Shown here one piece after another: positions 4,210 to 23,143 of a stretch of DNA of 24,920 nt. The notes under the pieces are model-generated. The model saw nothing but the letters and a program-made list of their open reading frames with translations, made no database searches and was not told the origin of the DNA. A program made the translations under genes and the position numbers. Positions within the stretch are counted from its first letter, which is position 1. The number at the start of each line of letters is the position of its first letter. The DNA comes from Chrysochromulina tobinii (Eukaryota > Haptophyta > Prymnesiales > Chrysochromulinaceae): NCBI GenBank assembly GCA_001275005.1, contig JWZX01002382.1:1-24920 (forward strand), given 5' to 3'.

Positions 4210-4576
4210 CTACAATATCACGCACGTTTTGCCGCAGCAGTATCTTCGCCGTGGTCCTGATGCCGTGGGTGTCGGCTCTTTGAGTATGGCGTGCACAGCT
4301 CGTGCATGCGACTGGCGCTCGGATAGCAACTGACCGACTCTCTCCTCGGATTCCTGGAGCTCAGCCTGCGCCTGCGTCACAAGATCACGGTGAAGCTGCG
4401 AAATCCTCTCGATGTCATCGTCCTCTTCAATAGCAAACACTCCCATGGGCTCGTCCAAAGTGGTCACCTTCTCGTACTTGGATTTGCCGCCGATGGCTCT
4501 CAAGGAACCCAGCATGGGTGATGAGCTCAGCTGCTCTGCCACGAACGCTTGTAAGTGCGGGCTGAAGCGCCGCCGC
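4210..4576 (-). CDS. Small acidic/helical protein with C-terminal CaaX (CVIL), 5' end unresolved
   Basis: The frame ends RRRYCCGKTCVIL then TAG (4210-4212). CVIL fits the CaaX prenylation consensus, and Leu at the last position usually means geranylgeranylation. The two upstream Cys and three Arg resemble the palmitoylated/polybasic tails of membrane-anchored signalling proteins. The body has an acidic segment (AIEEDDDIERI) and a helix rich in Glu, Gln and Arg (about 40-70 of the short form). From ATG 4515 the product is 101 aa. The frame stays open upstream to a probable acceptor near 4576 (T/C-rich tract then GAG), and a CAG|GTGAGT donor lies at about 4654, so an upstream exon or 5' UTR intron is likely. 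I see no upstream in-frame ATG. No small-GTPase motifs are present, so it is not a Ras/Rab tail by sequence. Family unknown. Confidence 0.55.
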
Positions 4577-4811
4577 TCGGGGGAAAAAAGTCAGCAACGC
4601 GCCATGTCGAGCGTCCAACACGACGCTCAAATGTAAATACATGCACAACTCACCTGACCGTCCGGCTCCTCAGGGCTCCTCAGCTACTCAGAATAATGCC
4701 TCCTCAGCAATCCTGTCGAGCCTTCTGAGAACACCTCTGCACTCTCTCCGAGCACTTTTCTTCCCCCGATCGGGCCGCCACCGCTCGATGGCGGATGGCT
4801 GCGCGGCCGGG

Positions 4812-6731: not shown

Positions 6732-6925
6732 TCCAAACGTTGTGTCGGGCACTCCGCGTAGGTGCGATGGCGAGAGCGCTTGACGTAAGCCGGTGTAGTT
6801 GGTGATCTGAGCTTGTGGGCAACGATCGGCTGGCGGGAAATGCGGTCTTGCGTTCCGGATTCGTCTGGAAGAAGCGAGCGACTGCCTTCTGCATCGCCGA
6901 CGATCCGCCTGCCTGCCTGAGCGAC
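6732..6925. promoter_or_regulatory. Divergent promoter shared by the Cdh1 and AHA1 genes
   Basis: Only 194 bp separate the two outward-facing start codons, so both promoters lie here. No TATA element is evident. Co-regulation is possible but is not shown by the sequence. Confidence 0.55.
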
Positions 6926-7939
6926 ATGGCCAAGCTTGGCGAAGGCGACGCGCGCTGGATCGTACGCGAGCGCGATGACGGAGCGAACGTCAATGGCTGG
7001 CACTGGTCGGAGAAGAACCTCACGCCGTGGTCCGAGGAGCGGCTGAGAGAGCTGCTCGTGGGCATCTCAGCCTTCGAAGAAGGAAGCAAGAAGGGCAAGT
7101 GCACGATCGACAAGCTTGACCATATGAATGGCGAGGTTACCGTCCAGAGCCGCAAGCAGAAAAAGTTTCCGCTGTACGAGCTGGAGATCAAGCTCAATTG
7201 GTCTGGAGAGGTATGGGATGCAGAGGGCAAGGTGGTCACGGAGGCCAAGGGTTCGATCAAGATCCCCGATCTGAGCGAGGAGACGTGGGACGACCTCGAG
7301 ATGACGGTCGTGTGCGACGACGAGACGAGCGCCATGAAGCCACTCAAGGAGGCCATGCGCACCGAGGGGTGCAAGCGCGTGCGCGAGCAATGCATGCTGT
7401 GGGTGAAAGAGCTGCGCGAGAGCGTCGCGGCGGGCAGGGACACCGCGGCCGCATCGACGAAGAAGCCCGCGGCCGAGCGCGTGAACGCGAGCTACGTCCC
7501 CGCCGCCATCGAGAGCAAGGCGACAAAAGCGATCACCATCAAGTACAGCTTTGTGCTGCCACCGCCCGTCCTCTTTGAGACACTGCTCGACACGAACCGC
7601 ATCCGAGGCGCGACCGCGAGCGATGCGAGCATGAGCAAGGAGGTGGGCGGCACCTTCTCGATGTTCAGCGGCAGCGTCGAGGGCAAGAATGTGAGCCTCA
7701 CGCCCTTCTCCTCCTCCGAAGGCAAGGCACAGATCGTGTGGGAGTGGCGTTTTAACACGTGGCCGCCGGGATGCTCATCCAAGGTGACGATCGACCTGCT
7801 AGACAAGGACGGCGGTACGACGCTCGAGCTGAAGCAGACGGGCGTGCCCGACGCGGAGGTGGAGCGCATGGAGAAGGGCTGGCGCGAGCTACTCTTCGAT
7901 CGGCTCAAGGCGATGCTCGGCGGCACAGTCCTCGGATGA
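6926..7939 (+). CDS. AHSA1: Activator of Hsp90 ATPase (AHA1)
   Basis: Intronless, 337 aa from ATG 6926, almost exactly the length of human AHSA1 (338 aa). The N-terminal Aha1 domain carries the diagnostic NVNGWHW (residues 21-27), preceded by GDARWIVRERDDG; then come KGKCTIDKLDHMNGEV and LYELEIKLNWSGE. A charged/Ala-rich linker (about 175-205) leads to a C-terminal SRPBCC/AHSA1 domain with IKYSFVLPPPVLFETLLD, GGTFSMFSGSVEGKNVSL and IVWEWRFNTWPPG. Aha1 is a cytosolic co-chaperone that binds the Hsp90 middle and N domains and stimulates ATP hydrolysis. An upstream in-frame extension without ATG exists, but the family alignment supports MAKLGEGDARW as the start. Confidence 0.95.
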   Translation: MAKLGEGDARWIVRERDDGANVNGWHWSEKNLTPWSEERLRELLVGISAFEEGSKKGKCTIDKLDHMNGEVTVQSRKQKKFPLYELEIKLNWSGEVWDAEGKVVTEAKGSIKIPDLSEETWDDLEMTVVCDDETSAMKPLKEAMRTEGCKRVREQCMLWVKELRESVAAGRDTAAASTKKPAAERVNASYVPAAIESKATKAITIKYSFVLPPPVLFETLLDTNRIRGATASDASMSKEVGGTFSMFSGSVEGKNVSLTPFSSSEGKAQIVWEWRFNTWPPGCSSKVTIDLLDKDGGTTLELKQTGVPDAEVERMEKGWRELLFDRLKAMLGGTVLG

Positions 7940-8427
7940 GGCGGCGCTTCCAAATTAGGTTCCGCAGCGGCTTCGAGGGGAGCTCGGTCCGTAGCCGTTG
8001 GCGCGAGAGAGCAGCTTGCATGCCGCGCTGGTGCTCTCTGCCGCCAAGTATTTACCAATCCAGCGAGAAGGGCTTTCGTGCGCACCGGTCAGAATGGCTC
8101 GGCACTCGGGGGCGCCGCGCGGCCGCCGCGCGGCCGACTGAGTGATCACACAGTCGCGTTCATCCGTAGTTATTACGGTGAACGCAGTGAGCAATGTAGG
8201 TTGGCCCAGCTCCGCAGGAGCTTTGATCGATGTCGCTATTTTGATCAAAAATATAGCGCACGTCGCGTGTCGCGGTGATCGAATGCAACCGGGGGACAGA
8301 AAACGGTCCTGGGGACACCGCTACTGACCCTTGGGACATATACCTCGCGCTCAGGTCTCCGATCATGCAGTCGACAGTACGTTGAGCACCAATCACGAGG
8401 CCGAGGCAGCCCTTGACTCCCCTGAGT
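7940..8427. other. Convergent intergenic region with a short hairpin
   Basis: These 488 bases lie between the 3' ends of AHA1 (plus) and a coiled-coil gene (minus). No supported gene is seen. An imperfect inverted repeat at 8156-8185 (GCGTTCA-t-CCGTA, loop GTTAT, TACGG-TGAACGC) could form a hairpin of about 12 bp in one of the 3' UTRs. A GC-rich palindromic patch lies near 8115-8135. Confidence 0.4.
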
Positions 8428-8919
8428 TCATTTGCGCAAACCTCCGAGCGCCGAGCCCGCATCCTTAATGAGCCCATCCTTGCGCTGTTGCTCCAGCTCC
8501 ATCTCGCGCTGCAGCCGCGTGACCCTCTCGAGCTCGACGCGCAGCTGGAGCTCGGCAATCTTGTTGCGCGCAATCGCGGACGGCTCCGACGAGCGGATCG
8601 ATGAAGGCGTGCGCCACGAGAGGGTGCTCAGCCCGTCTTGGCCACCCGCGGCGGAGAGCACGCTGCGCACGCCATCGTCGCCATCGGCGGCTGCAGCAGC
8701 TTTAGAAGCTCCCGATGCGCTCGATCGGCGTGACGCACGCGAGCCCCCAGAGAGCATTGAGCTGCCAGTGGGCTTTGGCTTTGGTTGCGGCGGCAGGTCG
8801 ACAGCCCAGGGCGGTTGGGAGAATGGGTCACCGCGACGAGGTCCCTCCATCCAAGCCGAGATCTCCTTCTCGACACGCTCCATATAGGCGCCCTCGCGCT
8901 CGCGACTTGAGCTGGGCAT
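8428..8919 (-). CDS. Small coiled-coil protein of unknown function
   Basis: Single exon, 163 aa, ATG 8917-8919 to TGA at 8428. The N-terminus (ERVEKEISAWMEGP) is charged. The middle is Ser/Ala/Gly-rich and disordered. Residues about 118-152 form a clear heptad-like coiled coil (KIAELQLRVELERVTRLQRE followed by a Glu/Gln-rich end). No catalytic motif is visible. It lies 124 nt downstream of the sulfatase stop on the same strand. The family is not recognised; a cytoskeletal or ciliary partner protein is possible but unsupported. Confidence 0.6.
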   Translation of the reverse strand: MPSSSREREGAYMERVEKEISAWMEGPRRGDPFSQPPWAVDLPPQPKPKPTGSSMLSGGSRASRRSSASGASKAAAAADGDDGVRSVLSAAGGQDGLSTLSWRTPSSIRSSEPSAIARNKIAELQLRVELERVTRLQREMELEQQRKDGLIKDAGSALGGLRK

Positions 8920-9043: not shown

Positions 9044-11218
9044 TCAGCCCAGACCAGCCGATGCCTCCTCCGCCTGCGCACCGCCCGGCGGCGGTCGATT
9101 CTGGAGCTTGCAGTTAGGGTCCGGATTGTCGGACTGGTCGCGGAAGGACATCCAGTAGCCATCTTCGGGCGGCTGGTCCATCTCCTCCGTGCGCGCCGAG
9201 CCCGTGCATATGCAGCACGGCACGTTGGTCGCATTGTACGCGTCGAGGCGCCCCTTGAGTTGCTGCACGACCTCCGGCAGGGCTTGAGAGAGGTCCTGCC
9301 TCTCAGCCGGATCGGCGTCGATGTCAAACAAGAGGAATTCGGGGAGGGGCTCCGAATGGTTGGCGAGGGCGGGGGGGCACGAGGACGTGGCATTGGCGTC
9401 TGAGGGCGGCGCACTGAAGCAGCACAGCTGCCCGCCGAAGGCGACTGTCGTGCCATTCGGCACGCCGGCGCCCGGTACGGCGCTCGACTTGACTTGACTC
9501 GACTTGACTTGACTTGACGGTCCGGCGTTGGGCGGAATCCAACAGCCCCCCGTGTGGTTACACAGATCACACCACCCATCAAAGCCACGGGCGGCCTGCA
9601 TGCGGTGCAGTAGCTTGTAGGCGCCCACGCGAACCACGGCCACGCCGCTGCCCTCGACACCCTCAATGTTGTGTAGGATCTCGGTACGCGGGAACTCGGC
9701 CGCATCCGAAGGCGCCAAGAGCGCCCTCCCGCGCCCGTCACGGCGCCCCACTGGTGGCTGCACTGCCGTAAGCGCGTGCCACTGATTGATGCCGTCCAGC
9801 CCGGCGAACGTGGGCCCCAGACTGGCGGCCGTGCTTCCGGCAGCGGCGACGAGTGTCGGCAGCCAGTCAGTCACGTGGAATAGCCCACCAAAAGAGCTGC
9901 CGGGAGTGAGGCGGCCGGGCGCGACCACAAAGCTGATGCCGCGGATGCCACCTTCCCACAGCGTAGTCTTGTGCCCTCGGTAGGGCGTATTCAGCCCGCC
10001 GTATCCCATCCAGCCGCCATTGTCGTTCGAGACGACGAGGATGGTATTCTCCCACATCCGAGCCGCCTTGAGTGCCCCCGTGACATTCGCCAAGCACTCG
10101 TCCACCACCGACACCATCGCTGCGTACGTGCGCCGGCCGCCGTCCATGATTGTACCGGCAAAGGGCGCGATGTACTTGGCCGGCACCTCCAACGGCTCGT
10201 GCACGTCCTGCAAGGCTAGGTACAGAAAGAGCGGCTTCGTAGGGGGCGTGCCCTGGATCACTCGGATCGCCTCCGCCGTGAACAAGTGTGTTGAGTAGCA
10301 ACTCGGATCTCCCTCGGAGCTCGGCGGCAACGGATACTTGAAGTACGTGAGCCATCCATCACCACTGGCACTCGTGCCCGCCTCGGCGGTCTTGAAGAAG
10401 ATCTTGCAGTACGGAGCGCTCTCGCAGTCGGCGGGGTCGGCCGCCTCAAAGGTGATCGCCGAGCAGTTGGCAAGCGCATCGCAGCTCGCCTTTGCGAGAT
10501 CGAGCGTCGTGTAATGAAAGTCGACGGCGTCGTGGCCGCCTGGGAGATAGCCCGAGCGTTGAGTATACGAGCACGGCGGCTGGCCGGGCAGGCCACAAGG
10601 CGGCGCGGGCGGCGCGGGTGGGTCGAGCGGGGGATTGATGCAATACGAGCGCACGGGCCCTGCCTCGGTGCGAAGGTCCGGGTACATCCGTGTCGAGCTG
10701 TTACTTCCCGGGGGGCTGCCTCGCGGCGTTCGGTTGATCTTGGTGTAATGAAGCTCGCTGCCGGTCAGGTAGCCAAAGTAGGTCGCAAAGCCGCGGTTCC
10801 AGGGCAGGCACGCGTCGCGATAGATGCCCGCGTGCCACTTTCCGATCATCGCACTGCGGTACCCTAGGCTGGTGAAGGCGTCGCCCAGCGTGCCAAACGA
10901 GGGCGGCAGGCACACGCGCGCCCAGTCCTGGATGATGCCATCCTGGAGGCCCGTGTGAATCTGGTAGCGGCCGGAGAGGAGCGCCGAGCGAGTGGGCGAA
11001 CAGATGTGCTGCGTGTAGTAACGGTCCAGCAGCATGCCCTCGGACGCGAGCGCGTCGATCGTCGGCGTGTGGAGCTGTGCTGGCTGCTCCGGACGAAGAG
11101 CACGCTCGCGGAATGCGGCGTCGAAGCTGCCCCAGTCGTCGACTAGCGTGAATATGACGTTGGGTCGAATAACCAGCGCCCCTGCATGGGCGAGCGCGAG
11201 CAAGGGGTACAGGTGCAT
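9044..11218 (-). CDS. Secreted type I sulfatase (arylsulfatase B-like) with PAN/apple-like insert
   Basis: Single exon, 724 aa, starting at ATG 11216-11218 with a short hydrophobic signal (MHLYPLLALAHAGALV). The metal-binding VDDWG (residues 26-30) is followed by the formylglycine signature ICSPTRSALLSG, with Cys73 as the residue converted and Arg77 in place. The second sulfatase signature is GYRSAMIGKWH (119-129). LALQDVHEPLEVP and VVSNDNGG supply further conserved active-site residues. The closing FDIDADPAERQDL is typical of arylsulfatase B. A Pro-rich linker and a Cys-containing PAN-like module (about 222-295; DLAKASCDALANCSAITFE, KIFFK) interrupt the catalytic domain, which makes it about 190 aa longer than animal ARSB. 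Probably hydrolyses sulfate esters of polysaccharides in the secretory path or outside the cell; it needs a formylglycine-generating enzyme. Confidence 0.93.
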   Translation of the reverse strand: MHLYPLLALAHAGALVIRPNVIFTLVDDWGSFDAAFRERALRPEQPAQLHTPTIDALASEGMLLDRYYTQHICSPTRSALLSGRYQIHTGLQDGIIQDWARVCLPPSFGTLGDAFTSLGYRSAMIGKWHAGIYRDACLPWNRGFATYFGYLTGSELHYTKINRTPRGSPPGSNSSTRMYPDLRTEAGPVRSYCINPPLDPPAPPAPPCGLPGQPPCSYTQRSGYLPGGHDAVDFHYTTLDLAKASCDALANCSAITFEAADPADCESAPYCKIFFKTAEAGTSASGDGWLTYFKYPLPPSSEGDPSCYSTHLFTAEAIRVIQGTPPTKPLFLYLALQDVHEPLEVPAKYIAPFAGTIMDGGRRTYAAMVSVVDECLANVTGALKAARMWENTILVVSNDNGGWMGYGGLNTPYRGHKTTLWEGGIRGISFVVAPGRLTPGSSFGGLFHVTDWLPTLVAAAGSTAASLGPTFAGLDGINQWHALTAVQPPVGRRDGRGRALLAPSDAAEFPRTEILHNIEGVEGSGVAVVRVGAYKLLHRMQAARGFDGWCDLCNHTGGCWIPPNAGPSSQVKSSQVKSSAVPGAGVPNGTTVAFGGQLCCFSAPPSDANATSSCPPALANHSEPLPEFLLFDIDADPAERQDLSQALPEVVQQLKGRLDAYNATNVPCCICTGSARTEEMDQPPEDGYWMSFRDQSDNPDPNCKLQNRPPPGGAQAEEASAGLG
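9482..9519. repeat. ACTTG/ACTCG microsatellite inside the sulfatase gene
   Basis: Repeated (T/C)GACTTGACT units encode the low-complexity SSQVKSSQVKSS insert before AVPGAG in the sulfatase. The copies keep the reading frame. It is a probable recent expansion in a surface loop and may vary in length. Confidence 0.8.
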
Positions 11219-12393
11219 GCCGTCGCTAAGTTTCGTCCATATAGAAATGATTCACGTTCACGCGCCGGATGGGGGTGCGCGCGCGCGCGTGCAGTCACTC
11301 CTCTTTGCCATCGTGGCATGCATCAAACTAGATGCAATTTCGTCACGGTCACACTTCACAAACTTCACGCGGCGGGCGCGGGCAATGAAAGACGCGACGG
11401 CCTCCCTTGCGGCCTCCTGTTGCAACTGCCTTCGCCATGCTAGTTGAGATAGCTTCGGGAAGCGGATATCAAGGTGGTCGAGCTGAGGAGCCTGGCTTGG
11501 TGGAGATGCGGATAGCAAAGCGTACACGTGTCCGTCGCGTGATGCTGACTGTGACTGCCATCATTGCCGTCATTGCCATCGTCATCATTGTCTTCGTCGT
11601 GATCGTTGCGGGGCGCGCGGACCCCGCACCTGCCGGCAATACGTCCATCAAGGTGGTCAACGTCTCGAGCGTACGATATGCATAAAGCTACTCGACTGCT
11701 GGAGCAGCCTGGACTGCACGACACAGACGCACCAGGAGCCCGCACGAGCCGCGGAGCCGGGCCGGCCCGCGGGCGGCGATCGCGGCACGTGTGGTCAACG
11801 TCACTCGGTCGTGTCTGTACTACTACTACTAGCCCGGGCGTAGCCGGCCCGCAACGTATACCGTATAGAGAGCCGAGAGGACACTCCGCCTCAGGCTCAC
11901 CTGGACATGCACGTACCGTACTCTCTCTACTCGTACCGTAAAAAGCGAGATAGCGAGTGGGTGCGGACTGCGGTGAACTAGTCCGTACACGGGGAACGGC
12001 TCGCCACCTGCCAGCGAAAGGCGAAAGGCCGCCCGCTCGGCACCCCTCACATGCGGAATCTCAGCCCATACTCCCAGGCGTCGTAAGCTGCAGACCGCCG
12101 GCCTGGAGCGCCGCAGTGAGCGCAGCAAGTGCACCACGCGCTCCAACACGCCGCCCGCCCCGCCCAGCCCACTCCATGCCCCCCCCCCCCATTCCCCACA
12201 GGCACTGCGTTGCGTGTGCACATCGAGGCCACACATCGATACCCATGCGCAGAGACATCCTCATGCATATGCGCCCGGCTGGAGTCGTAATACGGGCTGG
12301 AGTCCGGGCGAGGCGAGGCGCGGCGCACGCGCGCGCGCTGCGGCGGGTACATGGCGCACACGGCGCGCTCGTCGGCGGCGCTCACTGCGGCGC
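11219..12393. other. Intergenic region between the sulfatase and ARF-part genes
   Basis: About 1.2 kb with no strong gene. It should hold the sulfatase promoter and 5' UTR at its left end and the 3' end of the SH3/kinase/ARF locus at its right end. Visible features are an alternating GC run near 11277-11291, a (TAC)n patch near 11817-11829, a C12 tract at about 12180-12191, and one small frame with a membrane-type segment (11437-11685, listed separately). Confidence 0.45.
11437..11685 (+). CDS. Possible small single-pass membrane protein
   Basis: An 82-aa frame from ATG 11437 (or 59 aa from ATG 11506) with a basic stretch (RIAKRTRVRRV) next to about 23 very hydrophobic residues (MLTVTAIIAVIAIVIIVF and on) and a short polar end. 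The topology rule (positive residues on one side) looks real. However, the hydrophobic part comes from ATT/GTC/ATC low-complexity DNA, and the protein matches nothing I know. It could be a chance frame or the first exon of a longer gene. Weak call. Confidence 0.25.
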   Translation: MLVEIASGSGYQGGRAEEPGLVEMRIAKRTRVRRVMLTVTAIIAVIAIVIIVFVVIVAGRADPAPAGNTSIKVVNVSSVRYA

Positions 12394-13070
12394 TCACTTG
12401 TCGCGGTCATCGGGCATGTTCGACGAGAGCCAGTCAAGGCCCTCGTGCAGCCCGTCGCCGCTCGTGGCGCAACAGCTCTGGATGTAACACGAGCGCGAGA
12501 TGTGCGGCGGGTAGAGCTTCATGAGCTGCGAGATCTCCGCCGCGTTGCATGCATTGGGCAAGTCCTGCTTGTTGGCAAGCACGAGCAGCAGCGAGTTGTG
12601 TAGCTCCTCTTCCTTGATCAGCCGATGAAGTTCCGAGGCGGCCTCGGTGAGCCGCGCGCGGTCGGAGGAGTCGACGACGAAGATGAGCGCCTGCGCCGAT
12701 GCAAAGTAGTGATGCCAGAGCGCGCGTAACTTCTCCTGCCCACCCACGTCCCACACGGTGAACGCGATGTTCTTGTACTCGAGCGTCTCCACGTTGAAGC
12801 CGATCGTGGGCACCGTCCGCTTGGGCTGCCCAAGCTTGAGCCGGTACAGGATCGAGGTCTTTCCCGAGTTGTCCAGCCCGAGCATCAGGATCCGCATCTC
12901 GCGCTTGACGAGCCGATCGACGAGCCATCGAGAGAACTGCGAGACGAGCCCCTTTTGCTCGAGGGTGAACTTGAGCTTGCCCTCGAAGTCGCCGCCCTCG
13001 GATTCGTTCGCGAAGACCATCTTCGCGTCCGTGTTCACAGGGCCCGACGGCTTCTGGATGGGCGCATCAC
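12394..13070 (-). CDS. ARF-family small GTPase domain (last exon of the SH3-kinase locus)
   Basis: One exon from an acceptor CTTCACAG|GTGATGCG (13070) to TGA 12394. It holds a complete ARF-type GTPase: G1 GLDNSGKT, switch [11 protein letters not shown]3 WDVGGQEK with the catalytic-position Gln, G4 NKQD and G5 CATSGDG. It ends in [15 protein letters not shown]. The body is closest to ARF1 ([47 protein letters not shown]). A standalone ARF would begin Met-Gly for myristoylation. Here the frame is open upstream through [17 protein letters not shown] to the splice acceptor, and the first Met ([12 protein letters not shown]) is not followed by Gly. If separate, translation would begin at that Met (about residue 454 of the joined protein). 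Splicing to the kinase exon is in phase, giving residues 437-661 of a 661-aa product. Confidence 0.85.
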
Positions 13071-13126
13071 CTGTGAAGAGACGGAGGAGGGGGGGCGAAA
13101 CGGCGCCGTGGTGAGCACTTGCATGC
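13071..13126 (-). mobile_element. Introner-like element, family A (kinase/ARF intron)
   Basis: On the minus strand: GCATGCAAGTGCTCAC, CACGGCGCC, a long C/T tract and TTCACAG, followed by GTGATGCGCCC. The segment beginning at 13159 (GTGACGCGTCC then TTCCAGACGCCGTCG) is a diverged copy of the exon start at 13070 (GTGATGCGCCC then ATCCAGAAGCCGTCG). This marks an old target-site duplication of about 30 bp. It implies that the ARF exon was once contiguous with the sequence just upstream (GATCGATCGAG, two copies ending at 13160 and 13232). Confidence 0.75.
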
Positions 13127-13231
13127 ATTTGTTCGACGGCGTCTGGAAGGACGCGTCACCTCGATCGATCTGGCCGCGCTCCAATCACGTGCAATCCGCG
13201 GTGGTGCAATCCGCGCCCATCAATCACGCAC

Positions 13232-15250
13232 CTCGATCGATCTGGCCGCGGTCCTGACGTGGCTGGCTCGCGCTGGCTGGAGCGCCCGCGGTCGCTGCGG
13301 CACGCCAACCAGAGTTGGATCGCTCTCGCATCTTACCCACCCAGCCCGCGCCGCGCGGCGTGCCCTTGGTCGTGAGCCACTCCCCCTCGAGCACCTGCCA
13401 AATATGGGAGGCACTCAGCATGCAATGAGGGAGGGCGATCAGCACGCAATGCGGGAGGCACTCGGCGTGCCCTTGGTCGTGAGCCGCTCGCCTTCGAGCA
13501 CCTTCCAAATATGGTATACGGCCATGCAAGCGCACGCAAGCAGAGGTCACTCCGAGGTCACTCCGAGGTCACTCCGAGATCACTCCGAGGACACTCTGAT
13601 GTCACTCTGATGTCTCTTCGAGGTCACTCAACACGTCATCAGGGGCAAGGCAATCACGTGTGGCAATCACGTGTGGCAATCACCTGTGGCGCCGTCGCGC
13701 GCTGCTGCGGAGGCACAGTGAGCAAGTTACGAATGACGCCTTTGGCTTGGTCGCTCACAGTAGCCCATGTGGTTCGGTAGCCGTCGATGGCCTCCGGGAA
13801 CGCGTATGTGCCTGCGCGGATCAGTTCGAACATCTGCTCGTCGTCGTCGCCGTAAAAGGGCGGGAAGCCGCACAGCACGATGTACAGCACGACGCCGAGT
13901 GACCACATGTCGACGGGCTGTGAATACGAGGAACCGCTCGGCTTCCTCGACTTGTCCGACACGTACCTGGGGCACGGGGGGTGAAGGGCGGGGGTGATGG
14001 GGGTGATGGGGTAAGCGGCAGGGGGGCAGGCGGGCAGGGGTGCAGGCGGGCAGGGGGGCGGGGGGGGTATGGGGGGCAGGGTGGGAATGGGGGGCAGGGG
14101 GCGCAGGGGGGGCAAGGGGGCAAGGGCACGGCCGTAACGATGCGCATGCAAATCACCACTCCAGTACTCACCAGGTGAGGAACTCAGGCGCCGCAATCAG
14201 AGGCCATCCGAGGCCATCCGAGGCCATCCGAGGCCATCCGAGGCCATCCGAGGCCATCCGAGGCCATCCGAGGCCATCCCAGGCCATCCGAGGCCATCCG
14301 AGGCCACTACTCACCAGGTGAGGATCTCGGGCGCCGCAATCAGAGGCCATCAGAGGCCATCAGAGGCCATCAGAGGCCAGTACTCACCAGGTGAGGATCT
14401 CGGGCGCCGCGTAGTCGGGCGTGCCGCACAGGCCGCGCAGCGGCGCGCTCGCCGAGCAAAACCCGGCATACCCAAAGTCGATGATCTTCATGCGAGCATC
14501 GGGTGCCTTGGTCGTGAACACGAGGTTGTCCGGCTTCAGGTCGCGATGCACGATGCCCTTTGCATGCAGGTAATCCACCGCCGTCACCACCTGCCGCATC
14601 AACAGCGCCGCATCCTCCTCCTTGTATGGTCCATTCTGCTCGATTCGGTCGAAGAGATCTCCGCCGTCGAGATCTTCGAGCACGAGATGGTAGCGCTTGC
14701 CCTCCTTGATCGTCTCGAGCAGCTCAACGATGTTCGCATGCTGCACCATCCGCAGCACCTTTACCTCGGCGAGGATCTCCTTCTCGGCATCCTTTTCGTT
14801 CGCACCCAACTCCGGATCGTCCAGCTCCATGATCTTGACGGCGCAGCTGCGCTTGCTCGCCGTGTGCGTGCACCGGCGCACCTGCGAGAAGCGCCCGCGG
14901 CCGAGCACCTCTGCCAGCGCATACGACGCCTCAAACTTTTGCACCTTCACGCTCTCGGGCAGCCCGGATGCGGCCGGCGCCGGTGGCGTCGTTGGCGGCG
15001 GTGTCGGCGCAATCGGACCGCTCGACGTCGGCTTGGACGGGGCTGCAGCCGGCGCCGGCACCTCCTCCATGAAATGCACGTAGTTGTTCGGGAATAGCCC
15101 CTCGATGCCATTCAGCCTCCCCTTGTACCACCCTTCATCCTCTTCATCGAGGCCGAACACCTCGATGAGGTCGTTACGTTTGAAGGTGAGCTCGTCGGGC
15201 GCGCGTGCGTCGTAGTCGTAGATAGCCCGCGCCTTGCGATTGGCGGGCAT
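13232..15250 (-). CDS. SH3 domain-CaMK-like serine/threonine kinase, in frame with the downstream ARF exon
   Basis: Exons 14388-15250, 13684-13966 and 13394-13232; the next exon in phase is the ARF exon starting at 13070. The total is 1986 nt, 661 aa. Start is ATG 15248-15250. Residues 6-60 are an SH3 domain (RAIYDYDARAPDELTF, GWYKGRLNGIEGLFPNNYV), followed by a Pro/Thr linker. Kinase about 110-389: Gly loop GRGRFSQV (117-124), CAVK Lys139, HRDLKPDN (Asp237), DFG (258-260), APE (282-284), SQPVDMWSLGVVLYIVLCGFPPFY, then RATAPQVLEGEWL closing the fold. All catalytic residues are present, so it should be active. The CaMK-type sequence (CGFPPFY) suggests Ca2+ signalling, but no calmodulin site is clear. 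Without splicing at 13232 the frame stops at 13224 (DRGA), giving a kinase-only protein. Confidence 0.85.
13353..13515 (-). repeat. Duplicated 3' splice site and exon start in kinase intron 2
   Basis: Two copies 107 bp apart read, on the minus strand, CATATTTGG(C/A)AG|GTGCTCGA(G/A)GG and on through CTCACGACCAAGGGCACGCC. Copy B (exon start 13394) encodes VLEGEWLTTKGTP and leads into the ARF exon. Copy A (start 13501) encodes VLEGERLTTKGTP and runs into TGA at 13439-13441 after 20 residues. Confidence 0.85.
13543..13690 (-). repeat. Minisatellites in kinase intron 2
   Basis: TCACTCCGAGG-type units fill 13543-13630. Three GGCAATCAC(G/C)TGTG units at about 13658-13690 repeat the donor-side sequence CACAG|GTGATTGCC of exon 2. 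The latter creates three overlapping candidate donors; only the first (13683) follows the TAPQ codons. Confidence 0.75.
13967..14126 (-). repeat. G/C-strand-asymmetric minisatellite in kinase intron 1
   Basis: The plus strand is almost pure GGGGGCAGGCGGGCAGGGG-type sequence with many runs of three or more G. This is G-quadruplex-forming potential on the non-template strand relative to the minus-strand gene, placed right before the acceptor CCCCAG|GTACGTGTCG at 13966. On the RNA it is C-rich and could act as an extended polypyrimidine tract. Confidence 0.8.
14165..14410 (-). repeat. Triplicated exon end plus splice donor, with GAGGCCATCC minisatellite
   Basis: The last 22 bases of kinase exon 1 and its donor (CACCTG|GTGAGTA) occur at 14381-14410 (real), 14308-14337 (identical) and 14165-14194 (two changes). 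They are separated by about 10 units of GAGGCCATCC and about 4 of GAGGCCATCA. Only the first donor avoids an in-frame stop (TGG TGA); the others would give truncated products if used. Confidence 0.9.
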
Positions 15251-15453: not shown

Positions 15454-18303
15454 TCACGCGCCCACCATGGCGCCCATGAACACATAGCGCCACAATCTCG
15501 ACCACGCCTCGCCCTTCGCCTCAACGTCGTACGTCCTCGGCGCCGCCAGCACGCCTCGCAAACGCCTCCAGTACGCTGCGGCCGACTCGTCCCCCCGCGC
15601 GCGCAGCACCCCCTCACGCGGCACGCCGAAACACGCACCTGTGGGGAGGCCGGGCGCCGTAGTGAGCACACGCATGCTGGCGGGGCATGCAAGGCGGCGG
15701 CAGCGAGCCAACGCCCGAGACGGCGCCGAAGCACGCACCCGGAGTGTAGCATAGCCAGAGTGGCAGCGGCGGCGGCGAGCCAACGCCCGAGACGGCGCCC
15801 GTCGCTCGAGAACCATCAAGGCCGGTGGCGCCGTCGTGGGCGCCGTGATGGGCGCCGTGATGGGCGCCGTCGTGGGCGTTTCCACCGAACGCCGCTCGCC
15901 AGAGGGGCCCTATCGGAAGGAGCGCCGGGCGTCGTCGTGGGCATGGTAACCCACTCGGCTCAGAGAGGCGGAGCGGCGCACCGCTCGCGTCACAGAGCAC
16001 AAGGCGCTCACCTGTGGGGAGGCGAGGCGCCGTAGTGAGCACATGCATGCTCGCGTCACAGAGCACAAGGCGCTCACCCGAGCGCGGCGCGCCGCCCAAC
16101 GGCACAAAGGGAGGCAACGGCCGTCCAATGGCCGCCGCACCGGCCATGAGAGCCACGTCATCAAGGAATCTCGTGCTCCAGCTCGCCGGATCGGCCGGGG
16201 CGCAGAGGACGAGCGGCGGCAACGGCGGGCGCGCACGCCGACGCACGAACCGATCGTACCTAATGAGGGAGGTCATCAGAAGCCATCAGAGGTCATCAGA
16301 GGTCATCATAAGCCATCAGAGGTAATCAGAGGTAATCAGAAGCCATCAGAGGTCATCAGAGGCCATCAGTGGTCATCAGAGGTCATCAGAGGCCATCAGT
16401 GGTCATCAGAGGCCATTATCAGAGGCAATCACCGTCGGCCGGAGTGGAGAGCTGCGAGTAGCTCCGTGTATCCGATCGCGCCGTCGCCCGAGACGTCCCA
16501 CGACGCGAAGAGTAGGTCGCTCTCCTCCTCCGTCACCTCGAGCTCGAGGTGGCACAGGGCGCGGTAGAGCTCACCTGCATGCAATGCGGGAAGCAATCCG
16601 AGGCTCATTAGTGCTCATCAGGGGAGCTGCCGCCGAGCGCAGGTAACGCACCTGCATGCAATGAGGGAGGCAATCCGAGGTTGGCATTCGAGTCAATATA
16701 AAAATGGTTATACGAGGCAATCGTACGTACTCAAATAAGTACTCAAAGCACCATCAAAGGGCAATCAGCGAGCTCGCCTTTCGAGATCGTGCCTGACCGG
16801 TCGGTATCCCATTCGCGTAACAAGTCCATCACACGCTGTGCGTGCTTGCGCAGCCGTGCCACGATGGCGCTCTGTACTGTAGGCCCATCACCTGCATGCA
16901 ATGAGGGAAGCAATCAGAGGCCCATCACCTGCATGCAATGAGGGAAGCAATCAGAGGCCCATCACCTGCCAGAACAGCTCAGCGACCGCAATCAGAGGTC
17001 AATCATAGGTGAACCATAGGCCAATCAGGCCAATCAGAGGGCCATCAGAGGGCCATCAGAGGGCCATCAGAGGGTCATCAGAGGGCCATCAGAGGGCCAT
17101 CAGAGGGCCATCAGAGGTCTATCAGAGGTCATCAGAGGGCCATCAGAGGGCCATCAGAGGTCCATTCGTGAGGCCATTCGTACCCGCCCTGTCGTGCGTG
17201 ACAACGAGATCCGCTTGGCGCGCGAAATCGGGATCGCGCAGCGCCTCGATCAAGTCCTCATTCTCGGCCGCTTGCTGCAGAAAGCCACGAGCGCGAGCGA
17301 TGCGCTCGGCGGTGCTGCACCAGCCTCCGCCGCCGCGCCCGCCGCCACCATCGCAGTCTGCTTCTCCGGTGCAAATTGGGGCTGCAGCACGCCCGAGCGC
17401 TGCATGATGTGGAAGTCGACGCCCGCGGGCAGCCGATGCACCCACGCCACGTCTTCCTCCAGTCGCGGCACGACAACGACCGCGCAGGGGCCCGACGAAA
17501 CTCCAAGCGCCGTCCCGAGCGCACAGGGGCCCGACAAACCTCGAGGCGCCGTCCCGAGCGCCACGGGCCAACGGAGCGTGGCGCCATACGAGCTCGCGGA
17601 CGGCGCCTTGCGCCGCGCGGCTTCGGTCGCGCCGACCGTCGCGTAAAAGATCATCTCGTGCAGCATGGGTAGCAGCTCCCCTCGCAGCTCCTCCCAACTG
17701 GTGAGGGTGCTTAGGGTGCTTAGGGCGCGGAGATGTTCCTCGCCCACACCCAAGTCGCGCAGCTGCTCGAGCGCGGCGTGCGCCTCGTGCCGGCGTGCGT
17801 CATTGGCGAGGCACGCCGCCTCGTCGACCGTTTCGTCGCCGAGCTCCTCCGGGCTGACGAAGCCATCTGCAGCCAGCGCGAGCGCACGGCTGACTGCGTT
17901 CATCGCCGCACTGCGCACGGCCTCGATGTCGGTGCAACCATGATGCAACCGTAACCGGCGCCCGGTGCTGTCAGCCGACGGCTGCAGGTCGTGGGCGCGC
18001 AACCAGTCGTCGCAGCGGGCGGCCGCTGCTTCGATCGGGTCCTGCTGCGTGAAGGCGACGGCGGCTGCAGCGGTCGGCGCAGGCGTCGGCATGTGTGCGG
18101 CAGCACCAGCAGGAGCTACTGCGGGCCCCCCAGCTTGCGTGGGAGCTCGAGGTGGTGGCGCCCACGCTCCCTGTCGTCCTCGACCTGTGACCACCGCCTC
18201 TTCTGAAAAGCGGACCGTCTTGGTGGCGGTCACGTGGGTGGTTGGGGAAGGCTTAGATTGCCGCATTGAAAATTCCCCAAAGCACTGACTCTGTGTGAAA
18301 CGG
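15454..18303 (-). CDS. EF-hand calcium-binding protein, many short introns, one frame break
   Basis: Clear exons: 17184-18303, about 16770-16891, 16433-16574, 16078-16259, 15739-16011 and 15454-15638. A 12-nt micro-exon (16966-16977) fits phase. If a separate gene, it starts at ATG 18266 (MRQSKPSPTTHVTATK); the frame is open upstream to an acceptor at 18303, see the WD40 entry. Two EF-hands are visible: DTDRSGTISKGE preceded by KHAQRVMDLLREW, and DVSGDGAIGYTE preceded by EVTEEESDLLFASW; both loops have the Asp/Ser/Gly/Glu pattern expected to bind Ca2+. The remainder is not recognised. The junction between the EF exons (a GAGCTC copy on both sides, 16770-16775 and 16567-16572) has no canonical donor, and a possible mini-exon near 16651 is unresolved. 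A one-base frame change is needed near 17290-17345, in a GCG-rich run: real break or sequence error. Confidence 0.65.
15639..15677 (-). mobile_element. Introner-like element, family A (last intron of EF-hand gene)
   Basis: The minus strand reads GCATGCGTGTGCTCAC, TACGGCGCC, then CCTCCCCACAG, followed by the last exon GTGCGTGTTTCGGCG (15638). The intron (15639-15738, 100 nt) starts with GTGCGTGCTTCGGCG, matching the exon start with one mismatch, which marks a target-site duplication of at least 15 bp. The phase-1 junction CCG G|GT GCG keeps frame. Confidence 0.8.
16012..16050 (-). mobile_element. Introner-like element, family A (EF-hand gene, 66-nt intron)
   Basis: Core GCATGCATGTGCTCAC, TACGGCGCC, CCTCCCCACAG at the 3' end of a 66-nt intron (16012-16077). 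The first 29 bases of the intron (GTGAGCGCCTTGTGCTCTGT and on to GCGAGC) are identical to the first 29 bases of the next exon at 16011. So the element plus a 29-bp target-site duplication equals the whole intron. It is a multiple of three and lacks stops, so retention adds 22 residues. Confidence 0.9.
16260..16432 (-). repeat. GAGGTCATCA minisatellite filling an EF-hand gene intron
   Basis: About 16 units of GAGG(T/C)(C/A)ATCA lie between donor CGACG|GTGATTGCC (16432) and acceptor CTCATTAG|GTACGATCGG (exon start 16259). The phase across the junction is consistent (CG + G = Arg, then YDRFVRRR). Confidence 0.85.
16892..16965 (-). repeat. Two tandem 37-nt intron units (introner-like, family B)
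   Basis: Two identical 37-nt units, each beginning GTGATGGGCCT and ending TTGCATGCAG, sit directly before the EF-hand exon, which itself begins GTGATGGGCCT (16891). Each unit has its own GT donor and AG acceptor. The same 3' end (TCCC(T/G)CATTGCATGCAG|GT) appears before 16574 and 16651. A single 74-nt intron from 16965 to 16892 matches the size of other introns here. Confidence 0.75.
17003..17175 (-). repeat. GAGGGCCATCA minisatellite in an EF-hand gene intron
   Basis: About a dozen GAGGGCCATCA units with a few variants fill the intron that begins at the donor GCGG|GTACGAATGG (17183). It is the same repeat family as at 14195-14300 and 16260-16432, differing by one inserted G. Confidence 0.85.
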
Positions 18304-18347: not shown

Positions 18348-20004
18348 TCACCTGCTTTGCAAGCAAGCTTCGATGAGCAGATCAAGCACATCATCAGGAA
18401 ACTTCATGCCGTGTTTGTTCAGCCACAGCAGCAGCAAGACGTATCGCTGGGTGGTACCATTGAACATCAAATGGTCTTTGCGAGACCAGTTGACCATATC
18501 CCAGACTTTGATCGTCTGGTCGCTCGATCCAGACACAATCTTGGTCCCGTCCGGGGAAAACGCCACCGACGTGACTACCCCGCTGTGGGCATTCGTCTTC
18601 TCGCTGAGCTGCTCCAGTTTGACTGCCAGGCAAGCCAACAGGCGTCAGTTTTTGCCAAGGAGGGGCGATTTTGAGGGCTCACGGCGCACCTGAATCCCAG
18701 ACTTTGATCGTCTTGTCGCGCGATCCTGAGACAATCTTGGTCCCGTCCGGGGAAAACGCCACTGACATGACCCATTCGCTGTGGGCATTCGTCTTCTCGC
18801 TCAACAACTCCACTTTGTCTGCAGGACAAGCGAGCAAGCGTCAGTTTTGGCCAAGGTGGGGCGATTTGAGGGCTCCGGCGCACCTGAATCCCAGACTTTG
18901 ATCGTAGGGTCGCCCGATCCCGACACAATCTTGGTCCCGTCCGGGGAAAACGCCACCGACATGATGTCCCCGCTGTGGGCATTCGTCTTCTCGCTGAGCT
19001 GCTCCAGTTTGACTGCCAGGCAAGCCAACAGGCGTCAGTTTTTGCCAAGGAGGGGCGATTTTGAGGGCTCACGGCGCACCTGAATCCCAGACTTTGATCG
19101 TCTCGTCGCGCGATCCCGAGACAATCTTGGTCCCGTCCGGGGAGAATGCCACCGACGTGATCCAGTGGCTGTGGGCATTCGTCTTCTCGCTCAACAACTC
19201 CACTTTGTCTGCAGGACAAGCGAGCAAGCGTCAGTTTTGGCCAAGGAGGGGCGATTTGAGGGCTCCGGCGCACCAAAATCCCAGACCTTGATCGTCCGGT
19301 CGACCGATCCAGACACAATCTTGGTCCCGTCCGGGGAAAACACCACTGACGTGACCGCTCTGCTGTGGGCGTTCGTCTTCTCGCTCAGCAGCCCCAGCGC
19401 GCCTGCCAGACAAGCCTGAAGGCATCAGTTTTGGCCAAGGAGGGGCGATTTTGAGGGCTCACGGCGCACCTGAACCCCAGACTTTGATCGTCTTGTCAGC
19501 CGATCCCGACACAATCTTGGTCCCGTCCGGGGAAAACACCACCGACGTGATGTGGTCGCTGTGGGCGTTCGTCTTCTCGCTGAGCTGCTCCAGTTTGACT
19601 GCCAGACAAGCCAACAGGCGTCAGTTTTTGCCAAGGAGGGGCGATTTTGAGGGCTCCGACGCACCAAAATCCCAGACTTTGATCGTCCCGTCAGCCGATC
19701 CCGACATGATCTTGGTCCCGTCCGGGGAAAATACCACCGACCGGATGGTGCCGCTGTGGGCGTTGGTCTTCTCCGCTACAAAGTTGATGAGCTTTGCGAT
19801 CATCCTGCGAACAAGAGAGAAGAGAGCCTTTGGCGGCATGTGTATTCGGCAACATGGAGATATGGGGCCACACACGGCTGCAAGCTCGAAGGGCGCGTCA
19901 AGGGTCTCGACGCAGACAAGCAACAGCCAACAGCGTGCCGCGAGGATGAGGGGATTGGCGTGCGGCGTGTGGCTCCGAAGCTCATCGCAAACGGAGAGTC
20001 GCAT
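18348..20004 (-). CDS. Seven-blade WD40 protein, one exon per blade, hypervariable face
   Basis: Exons 19665-20004, 19470-19598, 19274-19402, 19080-19208, 18884-19012, 18690-18818 and 18622-18348 or -18352. The five internal exons are all exactly 129 nt and phase 1-1; introns are 65-67 nt. Each blade reads EKTNAHSxx(I/V)xSVxFSP then [18 protein letters not shown], nearly invariant except at the x positions. The start is uncertain: ATG 20004 (MRLSVCDEL) gives 419 aa; MPPKALFS or MIAKLINF further in are alternatives. After blade 7 a helical tail ([29 protein letters not shown]) ends at TGA 18348. A GTGAGAGG donor at 18351 and acceptor TTCACAG at 18304 (48 nt) would skip this stop and join the EF-hand frame in phase. 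Probably a recognition or scaffold propeller. Confidence 0.85.
18500..19800 (-). repeat. 195-bp tandem exon-plus-intron array (seven WD40 units)
   Basis: A shared CTTGGTCCCGTCCGGGG block recurs on the plus strand at 18540, 18736, 18930, 19126, 19320, 19516 and 19711, that is at spacings of 196, 194, 196, 194, 196 and 195 bp. Two unit types (VKLEQLSE versus DKVELLSE exon starts, with matching intron variants) alternate over most of the array, so it probably grew by duplication of a dimer of about 390 bp. Confidence 0.95.
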
Positions 20005-20700
20005 GCCCTCGAGAGAGGCAGCCCAGCTCGGGGTCTCAGGGTTGGGCAGTCACGTGGCGGTGAAGCGCGCGGGGGCGGAGAGGAAGGAGGCGGACTGGTC
20101 GGCGGCGCGCGACTGCGGTAGGAACGCAAAAAGAATCCACACTCGTGAGATAGACGAAGGGAGACGTGTAGGGGCAAGGGCGTGTGTTCCCTGAGATGCA
20201 GAAGTGCCCGCGGGCACCGTGGAAGAAAGCACCTGAGCGGACTCGATCGATTCCGTGTGCGAAGGGGGTGCGGTGGTGCGCGCGCGGCGATCGCGCGCGC
20301 GCGCGCCTGCCCGCCGCGCAGCGATCCGCACCGACGCACGGCACAAGGAGGAAAAGCGGACAGACGACGCGAGTGTGAACGGGCTGTTAACGAGGTCTGG
20401 AGTGTGAACGTTGGTCGTGAACGGCGCGCACGCGCCCTAACTTTCCAGCTCGAATGCTGGCTCCCCCGCCCCTGGGGCTGGAGCGGAGGAGGCTGTGACC
20501 AATCTGGATCTCGTCAACACGAGCGTCGATAGTATACCGTCGCGGCGTAGGCGACGGGTGTAGCGTGTCGCGTTCGAGGTACGTTTGTCATATCTGGCGA
20601 CGTACACACGACTGATTTGGTCACAGTCGCCTATACACCAACGATGCTGAGGCCGCGGCGAGAGCTGCAGCAGGCGCCCGCGTGCCGCTCAGTGCGCCCA
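20005..20700. other. Intergenic region upstream of the WD40 gene
   Basis: About 700 bp between the WD40 start and the nicastrin stop, both on the minus strand. It holds the WD40 promoter and nicastrin 3' UTR. Visible: an alternating GC tract at about 20279-20309, two GTGTGAACG motifs (about 20371 and 20401), and no frame that looks coding. Confidence 0.45.
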
Positions 20701-22967
20701 TCACAGCCGCTTGTACGCATTCTTGTACTGATAACGGCTGACGTGCGTGGCCACGTAGGTGAGCAGCGCACCCAGCGCGCCCACGCCGAGGAGGGCGAGC
20801 CCTTCGACTGTGGAAGGGGCCCCGTGCGGGTACAGGAAGGCGTACATCTCGTTGGGCCAGTTGGACTCGGTCCAGAGGGGCTCGTCGGGATCGGTGACCC
20901 GCCAACGGCCAGTGCTTGGGTCGCGTTCGATGCCCGCTGGGTACGCGTCGTGCATGAGGATGGAAGGCTCGCAGGAGGCAGTTGGCGCCAGCCCGGTCGC
21001 CTCGCAGGCAGTTGTCAGTCGCTGCTCTAGAAAGGCGGAGGCGAATCGCGCCGTCGCGGACACACGGACGGAGCCCGGTGCCGCAATGTAGACGCCCGCG
21101 TAGTGCGTCGTCAGGTCGCCTTCCACTCCGAGCGCCGTTGCGAGCGCGCACGACGGCACGTCGCCGCCCTCGCCGCCGCCGTGGCCGTCGGCCGCATCCG
21201 GCTCACCGCTACCGGCCTCGCCGCCTTCGCTGCCGCCGCCACGGCCGCCACGGCGCGCCGGAGGCAGCAAGCAGTGGAGCAACTCCTCCACGAGTGAGCA
21301 GTTCGCGTGCAGGGTGCCAGTGCCACCCGCCAAGCTCCACCACGCACGTCCCGCGACCGTGGCCGCCGCGCACACGAGGGACACGTTGAGGCCGTCGATG
21401 GTATCGAAGTGGGAACCGTAACGGCCACCTCCATGGTAGGCGTCCTCAAAGTCCGCAAGGGTGGCGACCGAGGGGAGCGCCGAGTTGGGCAGCTGGAGCT
21501 TCGGATCGACGAAACTGCGCGCCGCCCCGGGCGGTAGCCCACGAGCGCCCGTCGCATCGCGCACCTGTGGGGGGAGCGGAGGGCGCCGTGCTGAGCACTT
21601 GCATGCGCGAGGGTAGCCCATGAGCGCCCGTCGCATCGCGCACCTGCAGAGAAGGCGCCGACAGCACGGGAGCCGCCGACGCCGCCGCTCGTAACGCCTC
21701 CGCCGCGCCGTTGGTCGCGCCGTTCGTGGCGGCGGCCGACGTGTGAATAAAGAGCTCCTCACCAGCTTCGCGTGCCCCGATCGGCCCCACGTGCACTAGC
21801 GTCGTGAGCCGCCGCTCGCGCAGCTCGAGGAACCTCAAGTCGCGTTTGAATGGAGCCTGATGAGGGAGGCAATCAAGGCGTATGAGAGGCCATGAGTGGC
21901 CATTAGGGCGATGAGCACTTCGAGGGAGGACGCACCTGGCAAGAACTTGGCGCCGGCAGCGGCGGGCGCTGTGACGGCGCACCCGAGGGGGCGCTGGGCG
22001 GCGGCGGCGGCGCGTGCGGCGTCGCGCAGGTGAAGTTGCGCACGTCGGTCAGCAGCCGGCGGGAGCCGAGCTCGCCCCACGCCTCCCCGGTGAAGAGGAA
22101 GAAGAGGGCCGTGTTGGGCAGCGAGCCCAGCTGCGACGCGAGCGCGGGGTCCGAGACGATGGCATCGACGGCGGCGAGGACGGCCACGAGTGAGGCGACG
22201 GCGGCGTTGGCGCCGGGCGCCGTCTCGTGGAAGAATCCCGTCGCGTCGAGCGAGGCCGTGAGAGCCACAGCAGGCTTCCCCAAGCGCAGCAGTTCAGTGT
22301 CCGGCGCCGTGCGCGGCTCCAAGGAGCCCCAGACACTCTGGCCGCCGAGGGGCAAGCAGGTCTCGCTTGCGAGGCAGCTGGGAGCGTCGCCGCGCGCGCT
22401 CATCGGGTAGCGCAACTCCACGAGCGGTCGGTTGCCGCTGCCCACACTGGTGCCGGCATGGACGCCGTGCATGAGCACCGCGGCACTCTCGACCAGGCCG
22501 AGGAGCACGATGGCGAAGGGGAAGCGCTCGTGAGAGAAGCCGGTGCCCGCCGCGTTCCACGGATGCCGAGGCTGCGTCTCGGTGCCCAAGGGCACGGCCA
22601 GGTCGGGCGACGGCACCTGCGCCGGCATGGCCCTGGCGTCCAGCACGAGCACGCCATCGAGCTTGGCGCCCAACGTGGTGGCGAGCGAGCGGAGCGTCGT
22701 CAAGTGGAAGAGCGGAGCGGCCAGCGCAACGGCCATCCCGCCCTCGGGCGGCGCCCGCAGCAGCGCCGCCAGGTCCGCGTCGCTGCGCAGGACGTGCAGC
22801 GGCGCGAGCGAGCCGCTGCTGCGCGTGGCGCATCCGATGGTGCCGGTCGCGTTGAGCAGTCGGACGCACGGGTCCACGTGGCGCAACTCGATGCGCTGAC
22901 CGTCGAGCGGCGAGCGGGCAGCGGCTAGCGGAGCTGTGAGCGGCGCGAGCAGCCAGAGGGCCCGCAT
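20701..22967 (-). CDS. NCSTN: Nicastrin, gamma-secretase subunit
   Basis: Three exons: 21936-22967, 21644-21856 and 20701-21564, all phase 0; 702 aa against 709 in human. MRALWLLAPLTAPLAAA is a signal peptide. CVRLLNATGTIGC (34-46), SLDATGFFHETAPGANAAVA (239-258) and FFLFTGEAWGELGS (289-302) match the nicastrin ectodomain; the Glu of GE is kept, while the human DYIGS is GELGS here. The exon 3 part has LADFEDAYHGGGRYGSHFD, WWSLAGGTG and WTESNWPNEMYAFLY, then one transmembrane helix (VEGLALLGVGALGALLTYV) and a short basic tail. Nicastrin gates substrate entry in the presenilin/APH-1/PEN-2 protease. Intron 2 (21565-21643) is an introner-like element; intron 1 is 21857-21935. Confidence 0.93.
21565..21606 (-). 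mobile_element. Introner-like element, family A (nicastrin intron 2)
   Basis: Core GCATGCAAGTGCTCAG, CACGGCGCC, CTCCCCCCACAG. The first 31 bases of the 79-nt intron (GTGCGCGATGCGACGGGCGC, then TC, A or G, TGGGCTACC) match the first 31 bases of exon 3 at 21564 with one difference. The element with its target-site duplication makes up the entire intron. Confidence 0.9.
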
Positions 22968-23143
22968 CGCGTACACAGCTATTCTTCACAGTCACTCAAT
23001 TTGGACCGTTGAAAATGAATCAAGGTTCCTTTCTTGACCAGGATGGACTGAATCGCCATATGCGACGAAACCACATTGCATCTAGTGAGGCCCCGAAATT
23101 GAAAAGCTCGAGTTTGTGCGTTGGGCCCTCTCTGCCTGCAGGC
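22968..23143. promoter_or_regulatory. Divergent promoter between nicastrin and the membrane-protein gene
   Basis: 176 bp separate two outward-facing ATGs. It is AT-richer than its surroundings (for example ATTTGGACCGTTGAAAATGA near 22999) and has no clear TATA box. Confidence 0.5.

Follow-up and report, generated by a model that had tools for sequence, protein, structure and literature searches.

The DNA analysed here, referred to as the window, is contig JWZX01002382.1 of Chrysochromulina tobinii, 24,920 nucleotides (nt) in length, and carries on its minus strand a four-exon gene whose predicted product joins an SH3 domain, a CaMK-like protein kinase and an ARF GTPase. Splicing and translation placed the exons at 15250-14388, 13966-13684, 13394-13232 and 13070-12394 (863, 283, 163 and 677 nt), reproducing to the base the four GT-AG exons of the original prediction, with a total of 1986 nt, or 661 codons plus stop, and a continuous translation. 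The three introns, of 421, 289 and 161 nt, begin with the donors GTGAGT, GTGATT and GTGCGT, respectively, and end in CAG acceptors; their retention, in each of the seven combinations, introduced a premature stop after 288, 391 or 438 residues. Exon 1 (14388-15250) encodes the start codon, the SH3 domain, a proline-rich linker and the kinase N-lobe with its catalytic loop (protein match over residues 1-290), exon 2 (13684-13966) the kinase C-lobe (residues 288-385), exon 3 (13232-13394) the end of the kinase and a linker block, WVGKMRERSNSGWR (13302-13343), and exon 4 (12394-13070) the remaining linker, the ARF domain and the stop codon (residues 433-661). The ARF part had been predicted to lack a Met-Gly start, and indeed the first methionine of exon 4 lies within the sequence NTDAKMVF, where it is followed by valine.

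All three domains were recovered by Pfam at scores over the cut-off: SH3_1 at residues 8-54 (52.2 bits, E 4.6e-14), Pkinase at residues 110-389 (229 bits, E 7.4e-68) and Arf at residues 491-654 (224 bits, E 8.5e-67), the last of these overlapped by a Roc match of 55 bits. No EF-hand, association, COR, RING, B-box, SH2, PDZ or guanylate kinase domain was present among the Pfam matches of the protein. The closest solved chains to the kinase were those of CaMKII (195 bits in a PDB sequence match), and the ARF domain scored higher against ARF1 (242 bits) and ARF6 (213 bits) than against ARL1 (176 bits), placing it closer to ARF1/6 than to the ARLs.

A whole-chain protein search returned 3342 significant matches, the best 120 of which were examined. 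Amongst these 120, 18 proteins (P0001-P0017 and P0019), 55-82% identical to the window protein, carried the SH3, kinase and ARF domains in one frame, with query coverage of 98-100% in 17 cases and 87% in P0005. A further match, P0020, had all three Pfam domains, though its ARF part ends soon after the P-loop. Five of the 120 matches had the kinase and ARF without the SH3 (P0018 and P0022-P0025) and another five the SH3 and kinase only (P0021, P0026, P0027, P0031 and P0033), with several of these ten carrying apparent introns that had been read through. The longest contig of the cluster measured 1,986-2,935 bases for 16 of the 18 three-domain matches, and 5,607 and 14,645 bases for P0004 and P0010, these values being properties of the 90% clusters that do not give the contig of an individual frame; the short cluster contigs suggest that the 16 may be assembled transcripts. 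In P0004, the kinase seems to include an unspliced intron, but the frame runs uninterrupted from kinase into ARF. P0001, at 661 residues and 82% identity, aligned pairwise with the window protein without gaps at all three exon junctions. The prediction of three domains in one reading frame was hence borne out by the 18 fused matches, and where it had envisaged that relatives might encode the parts as separate orthologous genes, these one-frame relatives contradicted that possibility. A single-gene SH3-kinase-ARF fusion is regarded as almost certain. With its recurrence in many environmental sequences, the joined protein looks like a genuine signalling protein and not an error of gene prediction.

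Further searches did not extend the family. A seven-member profile search, examined to the best 120 of 4535 matches, retrieved the same three-domain set and no more distant fusion, and when the query was narrowed to residues 330-475 of P0019, P0019 itself was the only match among 308 candidates. The protein searches scored only the top word-sharing candidates (7986 for the whole chain and 7996 for the profile) under length limits, hence further fusions may have been missed. A scan of viral contigs produced a single locus with 20% identity across a kinase stretch, and a scan of genome contigs gave 129 relatives, 80 of which were kept; these, labelled as bacteria and one archaeon, matched mostly kinase residues at 22-37% identity.

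Conservation was assessed in an alignment of the window protein with 16 of the 18 three-domain matches (n=17), with P0004 left out for its read-through intron and P0005 as incomplete. The SH3 domain (residues 7-58; 15077-15232) retained its ligand-pocket positions within AIYDY, GWYKG and FPNNYV, with 28 of its 52 columns invariant, including D12, Y13, W41, P54 and Y57, as expected of a canonical PxxP-binding SH3 with an ALYDY-type motif. The kinase domain (residues 110-389; 13374-14923), which is split by introns 1 and 2, had K139, H235-R236-D237, N242 and D258-F259-G260 in all 17 sequences, along with P283 and E284 of the APE motif. In the ARF domain (residues 491-654; 12418-12909), PTIGF and WDVGGQ were found in all 17 sequences and NKQD in 16, and the P-loop GLDxSGKT varied at x alone, which is A in 12 sequences and N in the window protein. 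By these motifs and scores, the predicted chain unites an SH3 domain, a CaMK-like Ser/Thr kinase with intact motifs and a C-terminal GTPase of the true-ARF type.

Between the kinase and the ARF, nearly invariant blocks, among them WVGKMRERSx..., alternate with variable stretches. A basic, Trp-flanked conserved block follows the kinase domain, and the linker holds a conserved RSxS site, with an R-x-x-S close behind the kinase. The exon 3 block (10 of 14 columns invariant) and the block VNTDAKMV in exon 4 (residues 448-455; 13015-13038; 5 of 8 columns) are as conserved as the domains themselves, a pattern to be expected only of translated sequence, and the linker is accordingly judged to be under constraint at the protein level. 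A 14-residue stretch (12907-12948; 8 of 14 columns invariant) takes, within the chain, the position of the N-terminal helix of ARFs, and was modelled with low confidence as a helix at 477-489 in P0002.

The fusions entered into the phylogenies were the window protein and nine database proteins, namely P0018 and eight of the 18 three-domain matches; the other rows were picked by hand. The tree built from 37 ARF domains placed those of the ten fusions on one side of a branch with support of 99/100. The kinase tree, built from 40 C-lobes, grouped nine of the fusion kinases at 93/89, in an order near that of their ARFs. Pairwise distances for the SH3, kinase, linker and ARF, calculated for 9 of the 17 aligned sequences, were mutually correlated, with Mantel r of 0.78-0.94 (0.91 for kinase versus ARF) and p of 0.0002 in each case, the minimum attainable with 5000 permutations. 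As far as trees and distances can tell, the domains of the fusion have evolved together, as is expected of one inherited fusion.

The kinase and ARF exons are separated by intron 3 (13071-13231), which proved to belong to a repeated intron family, supporting the earlier reading of this gap as an intron. It contains an exact match to the core of the repeated element, GTGCTCANNACGGCGCC, at 13102-13118 on the minus strand, and its 3' end reads GCATGCAAGTGCTCACCACGGCGCC..CACAG. Ten matches to the core were found in the window at up to two mismatches, relative to 0.21 expected, five of them exact, and 921 exact matches were found across the 53.15 Mb genome, where the reversed pattern had none. Elements of this introner-like kind, GCATGCAAGTGCTCANNACGGCGCC..CACAG, were observed on the minus strand of the window at 5429-5445, 13102-13118, 15653-15669, 16026-16042 and 21582-21598. 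Amongst 37 distinct places (the first 30 loci and those of the window), 27 had CAG|GT 11-31 bases downstream of the element, including all five in the window. Thirty places had a CAGG downstream, and in 25 of them the flank upstream of the element repeated the start of the next exon, over 20-40 bases, with a score no lower than the 95% level for mismatched pairs; a single window place out of the five (score 6) lay below this threshold. Intron 3 has this same anatomy, in that a degenerate repeat of the spliced exon 3/exon 4 junction (13172-13134, minus strand) precedes its element: CAGATCGATCGAG is present both at 13160-13172 and at 13232-13244, and the next 26 bases differ from the start of exon 4 by four mismatches. 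P0004 and P0010 appear to have no intron at the kinase-ARF joint, with their frames continuing through. These features agree with the view that intron 3 is an introner-like intron, apparently gained within a once continuous coding sequence.

The other two introns have peculiarities of their own. Intron 1 (13967-14387) is rich in minisatellites and contains repeats of the 3' end of exon 1 together with its donor, such as a copy of GAGATCCTCACCTG at 14315-14328. Minisatellite units like CTCTGATGGC were seen by eye within this intron and again upstream of the fusion gene, at 16260-16440. Intron 2 (13395-13683) contains, as judged by eye, a degenerate repeat of the beginning of exon 3 at approximately 13500-13461.

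Separate proteins normally provide the link between signalling by kinases and membrane traffic under ARF control. The best overall explanation of the gene, which we judge to be more likely than not, is one 661-residue chain in which the ARF would direct an SH3-docked kinase to membranes; how such a chain would work is put forward more tentatively, as a sequence-based proposal with slightly less than even odds. The ARF domain would give the kinase a membrane address that is operated by GTP. Sec7 factors act on ARF domains of the true-ARF type, and loading of GTP by a Sec7-type exchange factor would release the pre-ARF helix (478-491), which once freed may hold the chain on a Golgi or endosomal membrane. 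There, the SH3 domain would pick proline-rich partners and the kinase would phosphorylate these or, in cis, the RSxS site of its own linker. As the chain has no N-terminal myristate, binding through the ARF alone would be weak, so that an SH3 partner would likely be needed as a second contact, and the two contacts (ARF and SH3 partner) could together constitute a coincidence detector. With docking, phosphorylation and the ARF switch on one conserved chain, the fusion would represent a natural experiment in kinase-ARF coupling.

Several observations weigh against this explanation or the shared ancestry that underlies it. For the pre-ARF helix, the hydrophobic moment was no better than in shuffled sequences (0.469), as was also true of the genome's own ARF1 (0.518), and P0001 has NNPD in place of NKQD. 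The proline-rich stretch between SH3 and kinase (residues 62-97; 14960-15067) is variable and unconserved across the relatives, with none of its 36 columns invariant. An AlphaFold model of P0002 with 21 relatives had a mean predicted local distance difference test (pLDDT) value of 63 and was usable for the SH3 and kinase only; a Foldseek search returned CaMKII as the best fold match and kinases in all 50 rows listed; the ARF part was poorly modelled, and the model says nothing on its placement. P0003 and P0004 swapped positions between the ARF and kinase trees, and the kinase of P0019 was placed at 61/60 beside a long-branched pseudokinase encoded on C1302 (described below), such that the ten fusion kinases need two changes instead of one. 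A single clade of all ten was not rejected by the approximately unbiased test (p-AU 0.379), which was performed on the 40 kinase rows minus the long-branched P0120 and C1925 kinases. Lastly, all 18 three-domain matches were from jgi, ena or lgn, and none had an MMETSP, EukProt, UniRef, NCBI or NR source; cultured or named representatives are thus seemingly missing, which may explain why the fusion has been overlooked.

The main rival to the membrane-address explanation is a ROCO-like arrangement in which, via the linker, the ARF switches the kinase intramolecularly, or the kinase the GTPase, and membrane targeting is secondary. ROCO proteins such as LRRK2 combine a GTPase of the Ras superfamily with a Ser/Thr kinase in a single polypeptide. 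An internal switch would suit the near-invariant linker blocks, the R-x-x-S site close behind the kinase and the correlated kinase and ARF distances noted above, but Pfam found no COR-like domain between kinase and ARF, and the true-ARF switch sequences, which a purely internal switch would not need, have been retained. We consider this rival a real possibility, albeit one less likely than not to be correct. Considerably less probable is that transcripts retaining intron 3 yield a genuine second product, an SH3-kinase of 438 residues without the ARF, which would provide the cell with both a switched and an unswitched kinase. The stop in such a transcript does fall past the whole kinase domain, but P0004 and P0010 seemingly have no intron at this point, where their frames are continuous. 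The in-frame stop just within intron 3 (13224) could also be taken to mean that two adjacent genes, an SH3-kinase and an ARF, have been misread as one. This is very improbable and was rejected, given the 18 fused proteins among the best 120 matches, a linker conserved as protein and a gap occupied by an intron of the repeated family. A chimeric assembly of two unrelated loci is the least credible alternative and was also rejected: the assembly is indeed fragmented (2253 contigs), but the same joint recurs in separate sequences of 55-82% identity.

A possible second relative is encoded on the minus strand of contig C1302 (1673-6866 of the stretch 1500-8500), where a kinase, half an SH3-like domain, a pseudokinase and an ARF are spread across two frames. 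The first frame, of 1421 residues, has a kinase (PK_Tyr_Ser-Thr, 189 bits), which we take to be of the TKL type, and the half SH3, which scored under the cut-off in one scan (20.3 bits) and over it in another (25.5 bits). The second frame, of 534 residues, has a kinase C-lobe (97.6 bits) and an ARF (147 bits), and joins the first one base out of register, due to either a sequence error or a broken gene. In this second kinase, HGNLQP replaces HRDLKP and ADLR replaces DFG, hence it should be a pseudokinase. From its position beside P0019 in the 40-row tree, it moved in a reduced tree to a grouping with the fusion kinases (79/99, not starred), and its placement with the C889-type kinases instead was not rejected (p-AU 0.32). 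Counting against a common ancestry, the C1302 ARF fell outside the group of fusion ARFs in the 37-domain tree, where it formed a long, unplaced branch. By sequence, it is possible that this gene and the fusion share an origin. A more specific scenario, which we hold to be doubtful, is that of a reusable signalling cassette of haptophytes. Here one ancestral SH3-kinase-ARF persisted as an active, GTP-addressed kinase, and a duplicate of it came to lie downstream of another kinase, where it retained SH3 and ARF but its kinase degenerated into a pseudokinase (HRD to HGN, DFG to DLR). If true, the C1302 copy would be a relay of two kinases with an ARF switch as its anchor.

Other ARF-family genes were also encountered. 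A separate and ordinary ARF1, beginning MGLSLSKVFKGLFGKK (Met-Gly, MGLSLSK), is encoded on C47, and the ARF of the fusion is thus an extra copy. Two ARF-family proteins, on C585 (1896-2942, minus strand) and C1873 (2761-3762, plus strand), have a hydrophobic leader and LRGGG ahead of the ARF and by eye look to be N-terminally targeted or anchored. On C184 (18-2405, minus strand), an ARF-family domain, the only one shown by Pfam, is followed by a long tail of coiled-coil appearance, and this protein presumably resembles ARL13.

The host had been taken for an alga, in agreement with its genome, in which the chlorophyll-binding-protein family had 58 matches and contig C1598 carried two PsaA/PsaB genes. 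The second of these genes was closest to haptophyte PsaB chains and thereby marks the host as a haptophyte, scoring 1642 bits against 9jj8 and 9uen, 1637 against 8z11, 1636 against 9uh3 and 1526 against 7y7b. According to the source articles, 9UEN is from Emiliania huxleyi, 8Z11 from Isochrysis galbana and 7Y7B from the cryptophyte Chroomonas placoidea (PMC12716418), and 9JJ8 is likewise from E. huxleyi (PMC13219633). The kinase C-lobe of C889 was identical to that of P0074 (jgi and ena, 66 members), which points to the same species or a close strain in environmental data. Elsewhere in the window, frames resembling an AHA1-like co-chaperone (6806-7939, plus strand), an arylsulfatase (9044-11251, minus strand) and a subunit of the glycosylphosphatidylinositol (GPI) transamidase (20701-22985, minus strand) were noted by eye, as were short frames with much-alike WD40-like units (18348-20049, minus strand).

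Parts of this architecture have counterparts in known systems. An SH3 domain and a kinase share one chain in Src-like and CASK-like proteins, the latter with a CaMK-like domain; the fusion likewise combines the two, but by Pfam lacks SH2, PDZ and guanylate kinase domains and has an ARF after its kinase. As in ROCO proteins, a Ras-superfamily GTPase and a Ser/Thr kinase are united, but in the fusion the GTPase is an ARF and is C-terminal, and Pfam detects no COR domain. CaMKII, CaMK1 and the CDPKs are nearest to the fusion kinase in sequence and in modelled fold, whereas an EF-hand or association domain is missing from the Pfam matches of the fusion, which has its own linker and ARF after the kinase.

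With respect to the ARF, the nearest parallel in form is TRIM23 (ARD1) of animals, in which a GTPase resembling a true ARF is the C-terminal part of a larger enzyme, behind a RING, B-box and coiled coil (PMC8358228). The partner in the fusion is an SH3-kinase instead of a ubiquitin ligase, the RING, B-box and coiled coil are unmatched in Pfam, and the ARF domains belong to separate clades (99/99 for four TRIM23-type rows and 99/100 for the fusion). In that article, Vargova et al. (2021) surveyed more than 2,000 ARF-family sequences and counted 75 of them as multidomain, with partners including PH, BTB, F-box, RSP3, VPS9 and Rab-BTB-BACK, and in E. huxleyi a 2OG-oxygenase; the fusion resembles these in being a lineage-specific joining of domains, for which there is already one haptophyte case (PMC8358228). 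In the available main text, 'SH3' occurs 0 times, the passages on kinases concern lipid kinases, PKA docking and references, and no protein kinase or SH3 partner is named (PMC8358228). No kinase-ARF protein was found described in the literature searched (titles and abstract openings), hence the original prediction's statement that no SH3-kinase-ARF protein has been described stands within that literature, in which the main ARF survey is represented in part only. The fusion would accordingly add a protein kinase to the partners of the known multidomain ARF proteins.

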